A stretch of 64,000 nt of DNA, taken from contig NC_092693.1 of NCBI RefSeq assembly GCF_964275005.1, positions 20,017,706-20,081,705 of the forward strand, written 5' to 3'. Below the pieces are notes generated by a model. The model did no database searches and was not told the DNA's origin. It saw only the letters and a program-made list of their open reading frames with translations. Position 1 is the stretch's first letter. Every line of letters begins with the position of its first letter. This document shows, in pieces, positions 6,401 through 62,834 of the stretch. This DNA comes from Diadema setosum. Lineage: Eukaryota; Echinodermata; Echinoidea; Diadematoida; Diadematidae. A program made the translations under genes and the position numbers.

Positions 6401-8049
6401 AGACATGCCTTGGTGACCACATCATTGAGGGCATGCCAGGTAACAAGTACAAATTGTAGTATCCCCATGGGCACTGCACCTGTTTGTAACATTGTACAGG
6501 CAGAACTTGATTGCACTTGTAAATCAAAACATTTCCCCTCGCTTCTCTCCTTTGCAGACATCTCTTCTTTCATGATGCCAAACTGCTGGCGCACGAGGGT
6601 AAATTGAAGGCGCCCATGAAGGATGCCGCCCGCCTCGCTGCCTTCTTCATGCAGGCAGAGAAAGGGGACTTCTCGTCGACGAATGGCGATGTCGAGCAGC
6701 TCGCCCAGTGCTTTCCTCAGTATCAAGACTCTGAGGAGTTCAAGGTGACAGCGCAGGCGGAATACGCCCGGCTGCGGAGCATGAAGCAGAGTCATGCCTT
6801 GGTCATGCTGCTGAGAGAAGTATGTGGGAACGATACGTACGGCCTGGACACCTTCAGCGCCAAGGGCTCTTCAGGCCAGCTCTACGAGGTTGGCGTTGGT
6901 CCTCATGGAGTTCTGGTCACCAGTGCTGACTCTTCAGAAATGTTGAAGTAAGAGCATTACTTTTTATGCCCTTTGTCCTTTTTGAAAGACTTTTCAGAGT
7001 ACGGAATGTAGAGACATTTTCTGTGTTGATGCTCATTTTTTTCCTTATTTCTAGTCAACAGTTTGAACTTGTAGAAATGTTTTTTTATTATTCTCATGTT
7101 ATGTCATAACAACAAATTAAAGATGGAGTAAACAGTTTAAAGTTAGGTATTGTAGTTGGTGATGATGTTCATCCACTAGATAACTACATTGCAGTTTGCA
7201 GCTTTGTTACAATTGAGGATTTAGAAGTAAAATCGTTTTTATTAAATGTTATTTTGCATCCTTGGTAGAAGATTTCTATTTGCCCTTGCAAGGAGAGTAT
7301 CTGATAGAATTGTAACATTCAGGATTAGTATTTGTCAGCAAGCCTAGGGTGTTCTTTGCGGCAATGGTGTGGAAATGCAAGAATTTTCATGCAAGATTTC
7401 TTTTTTTGTCATGTACTCTTGTTGTAGGATCCCTCTGGCTTGTGTCAAACAGCTTACTGTAGACAAGAGAGATTGTGACATCTGCTACACAGTTGATGAT
7501 GGACACAACTTCAGGACTGAAAATCTCGCAATGACGCTGGGCAGCAAAGAGTTAACGGAGGGAATATACCGGTCCATCACAGAGAAAGTCGAGTTCTTCA
7601 CGAGCGAGACAGTCAGCGAGCCTGTCAAAGACACATTTGTTAGAGATCTTCGCGGCAGCATCTGCTCCTTCCTGAAAATGCAGACGGACACGGGGAAGAA
7701 GTACTCATTCGACCTGCGCCGAACTCAGCAGGAGGTGCATGACCAAGCGCGGCGGGAGCTATTCCGACGGGGCATCACTGCGCAGTGCGCGCACTCCGAC
7801 CTCGCCGCCCAGGCCAACGACAGGGATAACCGGACTGAACTCGAGGAACAGCTCCAGAGGTACCAGGATGCCGTTCTCTGCCGGGTCTGCATGAACGCCC
7901 ACTTGGATACCGTGCTCTTGCCCTGTGGCCATCTCATTATCTGCAGTACCTGTGCCGAGATGGTGTCCTGCTGTCCGTCTTGCCGCGTCGATATCGTAGA
8001 GAAGAAGAGAGTGTATTGGGCAGGGGACAGCCCGCTCAGGCCGTGCTGA
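3378..8049 (+). CDS. MYLIP: MYLIP/IDOL-like FERM-RING E3 ubiquitin ligase, complete, 4 coding exons
   Basis: Coding exons are 3378-3464, 5758-5954, 6558-6947 and 7428-8049. All have GT-AG introns and joining phases 0, 2 and 2, giving 431 residues (human MYLIP is about 445). The N-terminal FERM domain (roughly residues 1-280) includes [10 protein letters not shown] and [10 protein letters not shown], which match the vertebrate protein closely. A C3HC4 RING follows at the C-terminus: C376, C379, C391, H393, C397, C400, C407, C410, with the same spacing as vertebrate MYLIP. In vertebrates the family ubiquitinates lipoprotein receptors (LDLR, VLDLR, ApoER2) and myosin regulatory light chain at the membrane-cytoskeleton boundary; that role is inferred here from family membership. 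The tail after the RING is about 21 residues and does not resemble the vertebrate one. The linker between FERM and RING is short and charged. Identity is secure; substrates are not shown by the sequence. Confidence 0.95.
3465..5757 (+). other. MYLIP intron 1
   Basis: Ordinary A+T-rich intron. It holds an A-run near 5019-5028, a T-run near 5270-5281 and another T-run near 5452-5461. No other feature was recognised. Confidence 0.6.
5758..5954 (+). CDS. MYLIP: MYLIP coding exon 2 (FERM F1)
   Basis: The acceptor is CCCCACAG and the exon begins GCC TGT AAC. It carries [20 protein letters not shown] and [17 protein letters not shown], the most conserved block of the FERM F1-F2 junction in MYLIP. 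The donor is GTGAGT at 5955, leaving two bases of an arginine codon (phase 2) that exon 3 completes. Confidence 0.95.
5955..6557 (+). other. MYLIP intron 2
   Basis: An intron of 603 bases with nothing recognisable inside. Confidence 0.6.
6558..6947 (+). CDS. MYLIP: MYLIP coding exon 3 (FERM F2 and start of F3)
   Basis: The acceptor is TTTGCAG at 6551-6557. The first base completes Arg95, followed by [16 protein letters not shown] (vertebrate HIFFLHIKEALLAG). The exon covers the helical F2 lobe and ends in the start of F3 ([20 protein letters not shown]; vertebrates have LLIGVGPEGI). The donor GTAAGA begins at 6948, phase 2. Codon third positions are clearly richer in G and C than the flanking introns. 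Confidence 0.95.
6948..7427 (+). other. MYLIP intron 3
   Basis: An intron of 480 bases with nothing recognisable inside. Confidence 0.6.
7428..8049 (+). CDS. MYLIP: MYLIP coding exon 4 (FERM F3 and RING), stop codon
   Basis: The acceptor GTTGTAG ends at 7427. The exon encodes the rest of F3 ([34 protein letters not shown], which matches vertebrate [20 protein letters not shown]), a short acidic and polar linker, then the RING from LCRVC at residues 375-379 to C410, ending with TGA at 8047-8049. Vertebrate MYLIP divides this part among more exons, so the single exon suggests lineage-specific intron loss or gain. Confidence 0.95.
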
Positions 8050-12915: not shown

Positions 12916-13950
<1,035 letters not shown>

Positions 13951-24300: not shown

Positions 24301-27300
24301 TCATTTTTAGACCATGTCAGTAGGGATACTGTGTAGGTTGAAATTTTTTGTGGCATGTTTTTTCTAAATGAATTTCATGTGTACAAACGTACATGTAGGC
24401 TGTTGATTGCAAACATAACATGCATGAAAATATTGACAAAAATGAAAACAAAAAATCTGCCCTGCACGCACTGTCCCAGCACACTGTATGGTTGCAATAT
24501 CAAGTGACTACTATAGTGTACACTAAAACTTTTTTTTTCTTTGAGAGTTGATGTCCTTTTAAGCAGTGATTTGACAAAAAGATTTGTTTGAGAAGTCACA
24601 CTTTCCCCTGAACAATTTTTTTCCCTTTTTGCAATAATCTTGATAATGAGAAGACCACACAGCATAACTGTTTGATCAGATGCCATTTGTGAAAATACAT
24701 GTCCGCAAAAAATATCAGCATGTTTGTTGTGTTATCATCTGTTGCAGTGTACATGTATGTCTTTAAATTATCCGTAATGTAATAAAATTATTGACTCTAT
24801 GATATTGTATTTAATACTCAAATTTTTCACACATTCTTAAATTGCAAAAAGAAAAGTGACTATTCCTTAGAAGTACTCTGATATAAAAATTGGACATATA
24901 CGTATTATTTATCCTGTATAGTTCAGACTAGTTCAGACCCAGTATCCACAAGGATGTTCTATTTAATGTATTGTACAAGCTAGTAGTCAGTGCCAAAGAG
25001 GCACACTTCTCACATTTCACTTTAATCAACTTGTACACATGTAGGTTTACCTCACAGAGGTAGGTGAAAGGTACTTATGTGTTCTTCAACTCCAACAGGT
25101 ATTTATTTTGTAGTACAGGTGTATAATCTGCAGGTATGATTAACCAGACGCTCTGCAGAATTCTGCATATTGAGACCCAATTTTTTTTTCTCCCCATCCA
25201 GCATGCGTCTGCGGTAGAGCACCTCGTGAAGATCGGTGCAGTAGAGTTCCTCTCCCAGCTGCGGTACGACGTCGGGGATGGCCTACACCCTCTCATCGAT
25301 GACATCTTGGAGAGGCTGCTGAGTCTGCCGGCTGACACGCCCAGTGTTTCTTCTCAATATTGCTTGTATGAGATGCAGGGCGCAGATCACTGTCAAGGTG
25401 GGTCAAAGAATTTTTTACAAATAGTCAAGAGGATTCTGCACTCTCATTGGTCGAGAGCTGTATGTTGATATTTACTGGCTACAAGTTGCCTCACTGACAA
25501 AAGCCACTGTAAACTTGTTATCTCGCATTTGTAGCAAGACTTCACGCACTAAGCAAGCGTTTGAATGCACTCAGTAAGAGATACCTATCGGTTAGCTTAC
25601 CATGCATCCAGTAAATTTAACGAACATTAATTAATTTTTATAAAATGGGCTTTAGAATCTCTGCAATCTGATTGGTTAATTGTCATACATTGATTTTTAC
25701 TGATCCACGCTGAGCCATGCGTCCTGTAAAATTCGAACGCATGGCCATGTGTCAGGTAAAATCCGAACGCATGGCTCAAGTCTTGTACAGTGTTGTAGGT
25801 GTACCGGACGCATGATGGGGAAAATGGTTGTATTTCATGAATTTACTGGCCTATTTTATAACACAAATGATGCACAGGCCTATTTCATGGATCAGTGAGA
25901 ATTGGATGTTCTTGTTTAACTTTGGAACAGTCTAAAACCCACTCGCTGCGCTCGTGGGTTTAAAGGGATAGTGCAATATTGGTGGAGATGAGAATCGGGC
26001 TTTTAGCTTTTTGCGAGATACCAAGAAAACACTTATGATGTAGTACAGAGCATACTGATTACCATTTTAAGAGGAATTCAAAGTTTATTTGATGAAAATC
26101 GGGTTTGGAATGACTGAAACATCCAAAAGCAAAGTAAAACAAAGTGATCATGTGGGCCCCACACTTTTTTTTTTGGATATCTCAGCCATTTCAAAACCAA
26201 TTTTCATCAAATAAACTTTGAATTCCTCATAGAATTACATGCTCTTTCATATTTCATAAGAGGTTTCTCATTATTTCACAAAAAAAATGTTAGAAACCTG
26301 AAATTAGGTCTCAACCAAAACTGTGTGATCCCTTTAAACAGTTCCAAAGTTAAACTTGTGCATCCAATTCTCACCGATCCACTCTGTCCTGTGCATCATT
26401 TGTATACAAGATGCATGGCTTTAAGTACTGGATGCTCGGTTTGCGCCTGTCAGGCAAAAAGGAAATGCAACCGGTAAATTTGCCATCAGGTTACATAATC
26501 AAAAATTGATTTCTGGCAACAACAACAACAACAACAACAAAAAAATTGTCCTCTGTCCTATAAAACAAATGATGCACACTTTCATACATGCAGTAACTAT
26601 TGAATTTAGTCTAAACCCACTTGGCTTCCCATCATGGGTTAAGCATTCCACAGTTACATTATGCTCATAGTTCGATCCTACTGACGCATTCAGACCCGTG
26701 CATCAGTGCCTCTCCTCCCCACCCCCCCCCCCCACCTTCCCCTGTAAACAATTTGTTTGACTAATGTTGGACCATATACCCATTGCATTGTACGGTAAAA
26801 ATGGTGAGGACTGATGTAAAAGGCAAAGAGTGACAGAGGGCTTACCTTACTGGTAAAAACTCAAAGCCTTAAATATGATATATCTGCATGCTTCCATTCA
26901 CAGATGTCTACTGTAGTCTACCCCAAGATTTTCCATGTAATGATTCAACATTACATTATAAATGATATACATTGGTAGATGATAAACGGTATTGGAAGGT
27001 TATGAATACTCCACAGCTCAGTAGTGAAGAACACTGTCCGTAGTTCATGCAACTGTTAGTGGGCCACATGAATGCAGTAATTTATAAAAAAAAATTATGG
27101 TTTAAAACCTTAACCCGTGAAAGCCCAGCAGCACTCCCAGGAGCATCATGACTTAAAGAGGAAGTCCGCTTGAAGAAATTAGAGTGAATAAAAGTGGAAA
27201 AATGAGAGTATCAGGACTGAAATATGAGCAGATTCTGAGCAAAACAAGTAAATTGCATTAGTGCCTGTCTGAGTGCATATAGTTCTCCTAATGTATTGTC

Positions 27301-57764: not shown

Positions 57765-59131
57765 TATGCCTCCGCCACGAAGTGGTGCCGGAGGCATTAT
57801 GTTTTCGGGTTGTCCGTCCGTCCGTACGTACGTCCGTACGTACGTCCGTACGTCTGTACGTCCGTACGTCCGTACGTCCGTACGTCCGTCCGCTTTCGTT
57901 TACGCGATAACTTGAGTATTATTTACTGGAATTTTACCAAACTTGGTCCAAGTATGAAGTATGATGGGGCAACGATTTGATAAGATTTTGGGTGAAATCG
58001 GCTAAAGATCAAAGGTCAAAGGTCAAGGTCAAATCATGAAATTGTATCCGTTTACGCGATAACTCAAGACTGTATGGAGCAAATTTCACCAAACTTTGTT
58101 GGAGGATGATGTATGATGGAACAATTACTTGATTAGTTTTTCAGTGAAATCGGACAGAGGTCAAAGGTCAAAGATCAAGGTCAAATCCTAAAATTTATCT
58201 GTTTATGTGATAACTCAAAACTGGATGAAGCAGCTTTCACCAAACTTGGTCCAAGGATGATGTATGATGGGACAATTAGTTGAGTAGATTCTAGTGACAT
58301 TGACAAGAGGTCAAAGGTCAAAAGGTCAAGGTCAAATGCTAAAAATGTTGCTATTTCCCCCATATCTATGCAATGCCCGCAGTTATTTTCTTGAAACTTA
58401 GTGTAGACATGTACTACTGCGTAAGGATTCTCCAGAGAGTTTCATGTCATAAGGTCAAAGGTCAAAAGGTCAAAGGTTAGGTGAAAATGTTGCAATATCA
58501 CTTTTCTCGCAAATGGTTCAATGTATCTTCATGGAACATGGTACATATGCATGTACTGACTGGCAGGGATTATCTAGGGAATTTAGGGGTCATGGGTCAA
58601 TAGTCAGGGGTTCAAAGGTCAAGGTCAACTCCTCAAAATGTTACTACTGTATTTCCCTCATACATGTATACTAGTATATGCAATGATTGCATTATTAGTT
58701 TTAAAAGTGTTTAATATATGTACATGTATTACTTGATGGAGATTCTCTTGGAAATTTCCAGCCAGAAGGTCAAAGGTTAAGGGTCAAAGGTCAGGTTTAA
58801 ATGAAAAAAAAAATTTGTACTGTAATTACACTCTTTCTTCATACCTTGAAAATTATACTCAATGCATAAACTTATAATAAGGTCGGTCAGAAGTCAAGTA
58901 AAAATTTTCAATTCCCCAAATATGTGTACCTGCACTCTTTAATAGACAATTATAGCAAACCCAGTTCGTGAAAAGTGAACATTCAAGATATTTCTGACAA
59001 ACCTGTTATTTCGATATTTTGCCAGTTATGTGAAACTGTCATCACACATTGTCAAGACATTGTACTATACACCTATTGGGAGAATCATGCATTATGGCGG
59101 AGGCATCAGTCGCCGTAGCGACATTTCTAGT
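57765..59131 (+). mobile_element. Helitron/Helentron-like element, copy E (longest)
   Basis: The left end TATGCCTCCGCCACGAAGTG-GTGCCGGAGGCATT, then a (CCGTACGT)n tract (57811-57894). The body has ten or so units with GGTCAAAGGTCAAGGTCA. The right end is ATGGCGGAGGCATCAGTCGC, CGTAGCGAC and TTTCTAGT at 59131. There is no open frame for a replication protein. Confidence 0.7.
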
Positions 59132-59164: not shown

Positions 59165-60303
59165 GGGTACCTAAGGGGGGGAGGGGGGGTCACCGTGCAC
59201 CCCCCCCCCCCCCCGACTCCTCAAAACTTACATTTTCAGGATCCTCATGACATACCAAAACATAATCAAGATGTTAACAGGAACGAAAAGTGGCTGTTCT
59301 AGGTGAAATTTAATGTATTCTATTGTTTTTCATAATTTCTTATGTATTTCTTTGTTTTTCAACTTTTTCAACTTTTGTTTTTTCTTTGTTTTTCTATTGG
59401 AAATTGTCACTGACCACTTTTCTACCATAATTAGCACAAAACTAATCAATGAAAGTGATTAATTGTAAAAATAATCAGGTTTTCATGACCTTCATGACAG
59501 AGCACCTGTTTTCCATAGGAAATGTACACAAAATCACAAAATTGTGCCCGTTTTGGGGAGACATACCGTTACAATAATGGGCGTGACTTCGCAAAAGTAT
59601 ACGCGGATGTTGCAAATTTGGTCTCAGAAGTTGTGCGAGACTTGACCAAACAAAGTCAAGAAGCCTCGCGACAGATTTATAGCGCAAAACTTTGAGGGGG
59701 GGGGGGGGTGGCGGATCCCCCCCCCCCCATCCTTATGTATGTATGTAATATATATGTGCTTACATGGCATACCTAAGGGGGGGGGGGTCACCATGCACCC
59801 CCCAGGACTCCTCAAAACTTACTTGACTTTGTTTTGTTCAAGTCTCACGCAACTTTTGAGACCAAATTTGCAACTTCCCCGCATACTTTTGCAAAGTCAC
59901 GCCCATTTTTGTAACGGAATGTCGTCCCAAAACGGGCACAATTTTGTGCTTTTGTGTACATTTCCTATGGAAAACAGGTGCTCTGTCATGAAAGTCATGA
60001 AAACCTGATTATTTTTACAATTAATCACTTTCATTGATTAGTTTTGTGCTAATTATGGTAGAAAAGTGATCAGTGACAATTTCCAATAGAAAAACAAAGA
60101 AAAAACAAAAGTTGAAAAAGTTGAAAAACAAAGAAATACATAAGAAATTATGAAAAACAATCGAATACATTAAATTTCACCTAGAACAGCCACTTTTCGT
60201 TCCTGTTAACATCTTGATTATGTTTTGGTATGTCATGAGGATCCTGAAAATGTAAGTTTCGAGGAGTCCTGGGGGGTGCATGGTGACCCCCCCTTAGGTA
60301 CCC
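59165..60303. mobile_element. Long fold-back element with arms of about 490 bp
   Basis: The left arm 59165-59662 starts GGGTACCTAAGGGGGGG. The right arm 59821-60303 ends CCCCCCTTAGGTACCC. Between these, the arms share long inverse stretches (TTTTCAGGATCCTCATGACA, GGAACGAAAAGTGGCTGTTC, AAAACAGGTGCTCTGTCATG). The centre contains a further copy of the terminal GGGGGG-TCACCATGCACCCCC block at about 59775-59805. Several C- and G-runs interrupt it. Confidence 0.85.
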
Positions 60304-60307
60304 GACT

Positions 60308-62834
60308 ATATGGCCCATTCTCAGTAAAAGCGTTCAAATACAGAATTTTGGTGTCGCCGACATTCCATGACAGTTTGCGGTTCCCTGAAACATATTAGAT
60401 ACTATTTAAATGTTTATAATATATCACGAGGACTTTATTTGTTAAAAATAAACACGATCAAATGCGGTTGTCTGCCTTTTTGTATAAAATTTTGCTGTTA
60501 AACTTCGTTAAGACCCCCAAAACGCAGTGTCGCCGGCTATGTCAGAAATATGTTTTATTGCTCCTCTCCGTCCACAAACACACTTTCCAAATATCATTTT
60601 CATGGACGATGAGCATATCATATGTGCTAATCACAATACTCAAAAAGTTCCAAAATTTTTATTGACTTCTTTTTTTATAGCCTTTTGAAACCTGTCGCCA
60701 AGTTCACCGCCAGATACGTTACCAGTTTCTTTAGTGTTACAGCATTGCAAAAATAACAAGACTATGCAATGACCCTGTGTATATGAAGCCCTGAGGATAT
60801 ACTTCATACAATGCAAGTACTTAGATTTTTTTGTGCAACAGCTCTTTTTTGAGAATACGGTACAATGTTTGAAATATCGGTTTTCTACACTTTTATTTGG
60901 ACAGATACGTGACATACTTTTCACGCCACCCACTGCGACAGATATTGCAATGTCAGACAAATTGTATATTATACATTACTCCTCGGAATGACGCATCGAT
61001 TCAACATTAAAGTTTAGTACAAGTGAGAAATATTTGGTAGATATCGCTCTCATAATAATATGATCGACCATATACGTTACCACAGATACGTTACCCCAGA
61101 TACGTGACCGAATTTTGCTCATTGGTCTTGTGCTTTCTGGGGATCAAATCTGGTCAAAATTCATCCCTACACATTACATGCTTCGTTTTGTTGGACCTCA
61201 GGATTATATTCTTACACCAAAAGGACAGAGAGGTGAAAAAGATCAACACTTCCACATGATTTTTCTTTCTGCGTCAGTGTCTCACAACTTAATGCCAAGT
61301 TTTCCGACAGATACGTTACCATATAATCAAAATGCTGAAAAGAAATTGTAAATGTTTTTACAAACAAATCGTTGTGTGCTCATAAACTCCAAAGTTCTAT
61401 TCTATGAAACCCAGCCACTTTCATATTCTATGCAACAATTTTGAACGTTTATTTTACAAGACGAAGCTAAGATTCAGCATATCAGTTTTTTGCTTTTCAG
61501 ATTTAGCAGATACGTTACGTATAATTCAGGGCACCCACGGTGACAAATAATGTTATGTAAAACAAAGTGTTCATAAAACAATTCTGCATAGAATGACGCT
61601 TCCATAAAAAATTAAAGTTATGTTCAAATGAAGAATATTCAGTAGAAATTGCTCTGTAACTTCACCGACAGATTCATTTACGGTACGCCAGATACGTTAC
61701 CAAACTTTGAAAGAGTAAAAAGTAGTTTATGAAACGCTTCCGAGAAAAGTTTCAGTGTTCTGTTGCATATTTATTCTAGTGTTTTTCAACATATGAAGAA
61801 CTACTCAAGATTCATTGATAAGTTGAACAATTATTTATTCATTTTCATTAAAAGGAATGAGCCAAATACGTTACCATAAGGCAAACAACTGTTTAGCATA
61901 TCGAGTTCATAGAGACTGTACCTACTTCCTTCTAAGTGCCTGCAAAAATATATTTTTTAAACCTTGTTTGCATTATCCATCAAAACTTAATGAATATTTA
62001 TAGTCAGATGGATAAATACATTCAGACGTAAGATGAGAATATTCTGTGAATGAAGAACTCAGCTTTCACATTTAGGGCTCTTTTCCACTACATTTCATAG
62101 TTTAAATATTACGTACAATGTTTAAAATGGTTAATTTGGGCTTACATCATTCATTTTTACATCAATTCATGAGGTAAATAATTAAGCAGGTGATATTTAT
62201 TAATTCATACACAACTAAAATTATTACTTATATTTTACCAGATACGTTACCAAAGGTGATTCGATGTTTTTCAATAGATATTTCCCCAGGAAAGCAATTC
62301 ATATTTGTTTCCTGTGAAATTCCAGATCGGATCGTTCCCTTTGCATGATTTGTGGGATTCGAAACTTTATTTGTAAGCGAAATTTGCTAAAAATACAAAG
62401 TGAATTTTAAGGTTATATTTCATTTCAGCAAAAAGCATACTTCAACCTACCACACAGAAATAATTTCTACCAATTAGCAAGGGATGACAACATCTTTACC
62501 TGTTGAAAAACCCCAATATCTTTAGGGGGGACAGATGTCTTTTCCTGAACAGAAATTGGATCAAAACAATAAATTTAATTCAGAGTTAGGAGTCCATTAC
62601 AACATGTAAATTTGCGGTAACGTATCTGATTGGTGATCAAAAATCATATATGATGCTCTATTTCAATTCATTTTTACTCGATGAATGGCCATCATTTAGA
62701 ATGTTCCACTTTTTGTTTCGTATTTGACCGGTTTTGAAGTTTCCGGAAAAACATCTTTGAATGTATTACTTTGTGGTTAATTTTTCGGTTTTACTCACAT
62801 GGAATTGAACACTTAATCTGAGAATGGCCCATAT
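60308..62834. mobile_element. Roughly 2.5-kb nonautonomous DNA element with 11 copies of CAGATACGTTACC
   Basis: Terminal inverted repeats: ATATGGCCCATTCTCAG at 60308-60324 and, inverted, ATATGGGCCATTCTCAG ending at 62834, with further similarity (GTTCAA-type words) inside. The 13-mer CAGATACGTTACC or a one- to three-base variant starts at 60711, 60902, 61069, 61083, 61097, 61308, 61507, 61689, 61863 and 62239 on the + strand and at 62616 on the - strand. No transposase frame is visible. Repeated internal motifs are known as transposase-binding sites in several cut-and-paste families, but the family here is not identified. Confidence 0.7.
60690..61890 (+). repeat. Two diverged tandem units of about 600 bp inside the 2.5-kb element
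   Basis: GCCAAGTT-CCG-CAGATACGTTACC occurs at about 60697 and 61294. TGCAACA occurs at 60834 and 61432. CAGATACGTGAC/CAGATACGTTAC occurs at 60902 and 61507, followed by CACCCACTGCGAC and CACCCACGGTGAC. GAATGACGC occurs at 60986 and 61591. The offsets run from 597 to 606. Confidence 0.7.

Follow-up and report, generated by a model that had tools for sequence, protein, structure and literature searches.

The window analysed here is a 64,000-bp stretch of the genome of Diadema setosum (contig NC_092693.1, positions 20,017,706 to 20,081,705 of the forward strand). Pfam matches suggest host genes in it, with a FERM exon at 6523-6951, a RING exon at 7348-8049 and a weak match to a rotatin exon at 25127-25468; an Rfam scan of the window gave no match. 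Other repeats are found at 12989-13737 (2.1 copies of a 347-bp unit at 93%, accompanied by AT microsatellites) and at 57812-57889, where a GTCCGTAC microsatellite lies close to a tandem repeat at 57930-58348 (151-bp unit, 2.8 copies, 81% matches). The word-studded element that is the subject of this analysis occupies 60312-62830 (2519 bp) and belongs to a subfamily that we call A. Another inverted-repeat element, whose arms read approximately ACCTAAGGGGGGGTCACCATGCACCCCCCAGGACTCCTC, occupies about 59770-60307 and abuts the target duplication of the first; its right part has many genomic copies at 93-98% identity.

The window contains exactly two occurrences of ATATGGSCCATTCTCAG, at 60308-60324 and 62818-62834, in mutually inverted orientation. 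The initial annotation had taken these as terminal inverted repeats, and the inverted pair is indeed present, but the leading ATAT is not part of the repeat. The outer 4 bp vary between copies of the element and mostly agree within a copy, and are thus a target-site duplication; the true element is therefore 60312-62830. Its inverted repeat starts GGSCCATTCTC, an 11-bp core. The features of the window copy are as follows.

60308..60311, no strand: target-site duplication ATAT, left copy, from comparison of the outer 4 bp among copies
60312..62830, + strand: transposon copy of subfamily A, 2519 bp, one of 40 scored copies, the others being 96-98% identical to it
60312..60322, + strand: left terminal inverted repeat GGCCCATTCTC
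60352..60358, + strand: second word TGTCGCC, copy 1, element position 41
60528..60534, + strand: second word TGTCGCC, copy 2, element position 217
60693..60699, + strand: second word TGTCGCC, copy 3, element position 382
60711..60723, + strand: 13-bp word, exact, position 400/401/402 in A/B/C
60902..60914, + strand: 13-bp word, 2 mismatches, position 590/593/594 in A/B/C
61069..61081, + strand: 13-bp word, 1 mismatch, tandem copy 1, position 757/760/759 in A/B/C
61083..61095, + strand: 13-bp word, exact, tandem copy 2
61097..61109, + strand: 13-bp word, 1 mismatch, tandem copy 3, position 785/784/787 in A/B/C
61308..61320, + strand: 13-bp word, exact, within the duplicated left block of A
61507..61519, + strand: 13-bp word, 1 mismatch, within the duplicated block of A
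61689..61701, + strand: 13-bp word, exact, within the duplicated block of A
61863..61875, + strand: 13-bp word, 1 mismatch, right array, 956/994/974 bp from the right end in A/B/C
62239..62251, + strand: 13-bp word, exact, right array, 580/604/591 bp from the right end in A/B/C
62616..62628, - strand: 13-bp word, exact, inverted, right array, 202/217/202 bp from the right end in A/B/C
62820..62830, - strand: right terminal inverted repeat GGGCCATTCTC
62831..62834, no strand: target-site duplication ATAT, right copy

At up to two mismatches the 13-bp word, CAGATACGTTACC, is present in 11 copies (6 exact, 5 with one or two mismatches), against 0.85 on average and never more than 3 in 100 shuffles. 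The earlier description of the words held up well: ten lie on the + strand and one on the - strand, all at 60711-62628; the rest of the window contains none at up to two mismatches; and those at 61069, 61083 and 61097 are phased exactly 14 bp apart.

This stretch is one copy of a dispersed, multi-copy DNA-transposon family. A whole-element search of its own genome (913 Mb in 102 contigs, of which the window is part) returned 216 candidates, of which 40 were scored; the 39 besides the window copy are 96-98% identical to it, two of them being less than full length (query 97-2527 and 3-2340). The end pattern GGSCCATTCTCNNNNNAAG occurs 527 times genome-wide (264 + 263) versus 2 (0 + 2) for its control, ATATGGSCCATTCTCAG 67 times versus 0, and a further count of the family ends gave 181 versus 0. 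The left-end junction, consisting of TGTCGCC, 8-14 bases and CAGATACGTTAC, is found 233 times versus 0. The initial annotation had proposed counting its end words across the genome and would have dropped its reading if pairs of them were no commoner than chance; the counts just given put them far above it.

Insertion has left a consistent signature. A script detected a perfect 4-bp target duplication in 32 of 42 two-ended elements, and two more become perfect once the inner end is corrected (AGCC/AGCC at L015, ATAC/ATAC at L017), the other eight having imperfect duplications; L026, which is the same place as L055, was left out by this script and by the A consensus, and L001-L008, which overlap L009 and L010, were excluded from the counts. 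The duplication is 4 bp in length, as bases farther out differ between the two sides. The strings seen include AATA, TAAA, ATTT, TATA, ATCA, AATT, AAAC and TTTG, among others, with ATAT at the window copy, and A/T makes up 89% of the 32 perfect duplications versus 60% of the six flanking bases on each side, although duplications not rich in A/T (AGCC, AGTC, AGAC, TGGA) are also present. Because the query contained ATAT, the similarity search may favour copies with that duplication; at loci found by the word, the nine perfect duplications are nine different strings, two of which (ATAA and TTAT) are reverse complements of one another. The base just before the duplication is a pyrimidine in 30 of 32 cases and the base just after it a purine in all 32, a palindromic preference as expected of insertion by a transposase. 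Terminal inverted repeats common to the dispersed copies, and a target duplication of fixed length, are as in TIR transposons. An empty site was sought for the window copy with its joined flanks: among the 40 scored of 321 candidates no match spans the junction, and the flanks match as separate halves only. The left half is itself a copy of another dispersed repeat, with matches that stop at the duplication or within a few bases of it.

An apparently genic region with so many similar sites close together might also point to a clustered host transcription-factor site or an enhancer of the surrounding gene. Such a reading is, in our judgement, highly improbable for an array that has 39 other scored genomic copies and whose flanks, where examined, vary among copies.

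The family comprises three subfamilies, namely A (the window type, 2.5 kb), B (2.55-3.1 kb) and C (4.3 kb). The members of B are L009, L013, L014 and L017 together with decayed relatives, and C is represented by L012 (4.29 kb). At least 22 ends of C are listed, with nine pairs, of which seven span 4281-4328 bp, one 5438 bp and one 7245 bp. All three subfamilies carry GGCCCATTCTC or GGGCCATTCTC and 4-bp duplications. The Repbase rule for a superfamily calls for the same duplication length and for agreement over terminal positions 1-11 with one mismatch, in the available text of its description (PMC4455052). A, B and C share the 4-bp duplication and agree over the terminal 11 bp, so the rule puts them in one superfamily. 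Their interiors share little: BLASTN at E 1e-4 gave no match between A (window copy) and B, and between A and C only matches of 55-121 bp at the ends and one 57-bp word cluster. Simple repeats apart, B-like loci matched C only over 25 bp internally and 33 bp terminally.

No coding sequence was recognised in the representative of any subfamily. Internal frames run to at most 111 codons in the window copy (A consensus, 95), 103 in L014 (B) and 94 in L012 (C). We scanned the internal frames of at least 60 codons in one representative each (window copy for A, L014 for B, L012 for C), the set being made up of frames lying inside the ends and one C frame that runs 4 bases over. None of the 24 frames (5 in A, 7 in B, 12 in C) reached a curated Pfam cut-off, and the four weak matches (E 0.033-0.15) fell below it. 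There is thus no transposase in the scanned frames of the three representatives, as in a non-autonomous element, and the family is apparently non-coding.

Within subfamily A, 36 copies lie 0.9-1.7% from their own consensus, the window copy at 0.99%; this alignment consists of uninterrupted two-ended copies, L015 and the other interrupted or one-ended copies being excluded. Such low divergence suggests that A may represent a recent spread of a non-coding family. Subfamily A also holds a duplicated left block of about 520 bp (element positions 378-893 and 974-1500), the two copies of which are identical at 330 of 475 aligned bases, with a score of 297 versus at most 132.5 in 100 shuffles. The three extra words of A (positions 996, 1195 and 1377) derive from the left-block copy. 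The duplication is old, spans approximately 60689-61811 in the window, and is the source of three of its eleven words.

Elements with such different interiors nevertheless keep their words in place. We aligned globally the left 820 bp and the right ~1020 bp of the three representatives, with the words and the last 60 bp excluded from the background. Non-word identity between pairs of A, B and C is 64.5-69.7%, versus 66.0-67.3% for shuffled sequence; on the right, A-B and B-C stand 1.3 and 1.8 standard deviations above the shuffled value. Word columns on the left are identical at 71/73, 80/86 and 69/69 positions in the pairwise alignments, and on the right at 25/26, 26/26 and 26/26. Only 26 of about 39 right word columns, corresponding to two of three words, are in register in each alignment, so spacing is looser on that side. 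When four ungapped left segments were compared, faint homology appeared between A and C in two of them (0.42 and 0.47 versus 0.33 and 0.34, none of 500 shuffles being as high), all other segments and pairs being at or near chance (shuffle fractions 0.042-0.72). Matching word positions are therefore partly inherited.

From the left end, the 13-bp words begin at 400/590/757-785 in A, 401/593/760-784 in B and 402/594/759-787 in C, and the three copies of TGTCGCC at 41/217/382 in the A consensus, 41/217/384 in B (L014) and 41/216/384 in C (L012). Of 200000 random triplets drawn in the left region, one agrees with that of A to within 3 bp, a figure to be read with the facts that the A triplet was picked after looking and that common descent contributes to the match. 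Distances from the right end are 956/580/202 bp in A, 994/604/217 bp in B and 974/591/202 bp in C, and the last right word is inverted in all three representatives. Two B members deviate: in L017 two copies of TGTCGCC are shifted 33 bp towards the end and the inverted right word is absent at up to two mismatches, and the third TGTCGCC of L013 is reduced to GTCGCC.

The words are also tied to the ends of the family among the matches listed. Genome-wide, CAGATACGTTACC occurs 1599 times (817 + 782) versus 15 (6 + 9) for a reversed-pattern control, a count that the initial annotation had also proposed. The shares that follow rest on the first 100 listed places for each pattern and hold among the matches listed. 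On contigs C1 and C2, a word lies no more than 4 kb inward of 31 of the 32 listed ends, the end at C2:21207336 being the only one without a listed word. Conversely, 87 of the 100 listed words on these contigs have an inward-facing exact end within 4.5 kb, where random placement gives a mean of 0.31 per 100 and a maximum of 3 in 1000 trials. The other 13 words sit in four copies of A or B with imperfect ends: L015 is an A copy with its first end base altered, and L016, L019 and L021 align to subfamily B with ends altered or missing. A word spread through the genome without these ends, which had been named in advance as a sign against the transposon, is not what is seen among the matches listed.

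The same words speak to whether a satellite is in the making here, with the word as a tandem unit that spreads by unequal exchange. Tandem runs of two or three words at a 14-24 bp pitch, and the ~520-bp duplicated block of A, are what such a process might leave, yet the first 100 listed words are grouped into 23 separate clusters, none with more than 8 exact words, with recurring offsets, and most listed clusters are bounded by ends and target duplications. We regard this origin as scarcely credible. Dispersed copies and end-bounded clusters disfavour both alternatives kept by the initial annotation (clustered transcription-factor site and satellite), and its main proposal, a transposon-like element whose interior carries repeated words, is supported by dispersed copies with matched ends and with words inside them.

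Sequence variation within subfamilies indicates constraint on the words. Within A, 12 singleton changes fall in words versus 29.8 expected, or 30.2 when base composition and CpG are taken into account, and 20000 random placements include none as low; the A set is possibly biased, as search seeding may favour intact words. The 30 A copies found by similarity alone have 9 singleton word changes versus 24.4 expected (fraction 0.00085). If all changes are taken rather than singletons, the random-window fraction is about 0.011-0.012, a weaker result, as most of the changes come from the polymorphic word at 590. Within B, ten B-like loci compared with L014 are identical at 698/719 word columns versus 15467/17640 elsewhere, in a set that is biased by having been chosen for exact words; taken singly, seven of the ten fall below P 0.05, the exceptions being L009, L013 and L028.

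Longer relatives were considered as autonomous copies. A 10.6-kb end pair at C6:2114127-2124755 was rejected: the stretch examined within it, L059, proved to be a dispersed repeat unrelated to the family, and the left-end junction found at C6:2116333 (- strand) implies a shorter element inside the pair. No longer relative with a transposase was thus found in the 1801 bp examined of one long end pair. L059:1-1801 (C6:2118600-2120400) is in its own right an abundant repeat with internal repetition and 659 matches, the best copies being 93-96% identical. Other long end pairs lie at C11:15724315-15734617, C12:28110407-28118996 and C12:29578736-29585980. The 7-kb A copy L015 was likewise rejected, its extra DNA with reverse-transcriptase frames being a nested insert: at L015:3107-7176 a LINE-like sequence on the - strand, with frames matching Pfam RVT_1, interrupts the A copy. 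As a coding candidate, the 4.3-kb subfamily C offered 12 frames of at least 60 codons, without a Pfam match at cut-off.

The element is probably a non-autonomous cut-and-paste transposon, with words that would be binding sites kept by selection for mobility. Words held at matching distances from the ends amid divergent sequence suggest binding sites needed for jumping, and that they are sites for a transposase is what we infer from sequence. A transposase made by an autonomous partner elsewhere would mobilise the family, cutting at GG(G/C)CCATTCTC and inserting into A/T-rich 4-bp targets. TGTCGCC, near the left end, and CAGATACGTTACC, in an array whose outermost copies lie 400 bp inside the left end and about 200 bp inside the right end, may be sites for this transposase or for an accessory protein that joins the ends. 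Copies with broken words or broken spacing would transpose poorly, and by this proposal the array would be kept by selection for mobility. Subfamily A would then have spread recently, the left-block duplication having added three words to it.

The pitch of the words bears on what might bind them. With the last tandem copy taken, left steps are 190, 195, 192, 191, 192 and 193 bp, and right steps, at 376-390 bp, are about twice as long. A step of ~192 bp and its double resemble the nucleosome repeat. The pitch is a suggestion and not a rule, as the second left step becomes 165-167 bp when the first tandem copy is taken and other steps vary (211, 199, 182 and 174 bp in A, 176 bp in C). The same non-autonomous transposon could have its words bound by a host factor, transcriptional or architectural, acting in expression or chromatin positioning. 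In favour of a host factor, besides the regular left and right steps, the words extend to ~0.8 kb from the left end and ~1.0 kb from the right end, farther than the repeats of Hermes, which the available text describes as concentrated at the tips (PMC10368747). A gene-less copy, however, has little need of a promoter array and yet keeps one, the array is tied to the family ends, and the pitch varies with the tandem copy taken; we think a host factor unlikely.

It is tempting to speculate that the words form a long-range ruler, with nucleosome-scale sites (~192 bp or double) needed by the transposition complex or its partner. Spaced along 0.8 kb at the left end and 1.0 kb at the right end, the sites would in that event let the element be recognised in the form of chromatin, not of naked ends. 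We give the ruler an even smaller chance than a host factor. If true, it would be a mode of end recognition absent from the descriptions in the available portions of the papers compared here. A literature search for nucleosome-periodic subterminal repeats with transposase binding found nothing, and an exact text search of the available papers for the 13-mer also returned nothing, which says little as sequences are seldom printed in text.

Short motifs inside transposon ends are already known. Here one genome holds three subfamilies with interiors at or near the random level of similarity and with words and their left-end distances kept. These subfamilies amount to a natural mutagenesis record of the internal bases that transposition may need, and the ends together with the two words provide a direct search key for the autonomous partner.

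By target duplication, the nearest known group is Sola2, of which the family is a possible member. Sola2 elements have A/T-rich 4-bp duplications (AWWT; ATAT, AAAT, ATTT) and inverted repeats of 12-21 bp, and like the present family they combine short inverted repeats with related elements of unrelated interiors, as far as the available description goes (PMC3627910). The family could be a defective member of Sola2, its words being ordinary Sola2 transposase sites, a serious possibility that we nonetheless hold to be less probable than its opposite. The ATAT, AAAT and ATTT-like duplications and the 11-bp core repeat resemble that description (PMC3627910), but no transposase is seen in the family, the likeness is one of description and not of end sequences, and the available part of the Sola2 account mentions no word array. 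The 89% A/T share of the 32 perfect duplications agrees with Sola2, and the AGCC, AGTC, AGAC and TGGA duplications do not. Other groups, such as Ginger and Chapaev, also make 4-bp target duplications. With no transposase seen, the family is not filed as Sola2.

Use of repeated internal motifs has parallels in other groups. In CACTA elements, subterminal motifs recognised by TNPA are cis-determinants of transposition and differ between families, and the soybean En/Spm-CACTA element Tgmt* has 4 motifs within 159 bp on the left and 24 within 732 bp on the right, according to the available text (PMC2613891). The present family is similar in its repeated short subterminal motifs and in the asymmetry of its two ends, but the CACTA ends and 3-bp duplication described there (PMC2613891) are replaced here by GGSCC ends (GGSCCATTCTC) and 4 bp, and the dense repeats there by sparse words, the first 13-bp word lying 400 bp from the left end. 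Hermes, a hAT element, likewise has inverted repeats that are imperfect through a swap of two bases, interspersed motifs placed asymmetrically and ends of ~450 bp, in which the exact phasing of the outermost subterminal repeats from the end is reported to be crucial, in the parts of the account available (PMC10368747). Extra transposase binding at more interior repeats is there judged unlikely in cells (PMC10368747), which disfavours a simple carry-over of the Hermes arrangement to words 200-1000 bp inside. The Hermes target is 8 bp, as is the duplication of hAT elements generally, whereas the duplication here is 4 bp and the 13-bp word starts 400 bp inside on the left and ~200 bp on the right. 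Ac/Ds elements, too, differ from the family in making 8-bp target duplications. Their non-autonomous copies resemble it in having common ends (11 bp) and some subterminal repeats with great variation in size and composition, in the available text (PMC3260210). By analogy with these systems, the family may work much as Hermes and CACTA elements do, and, since its duplication length and ends differ from theirs, it is filed with neither.
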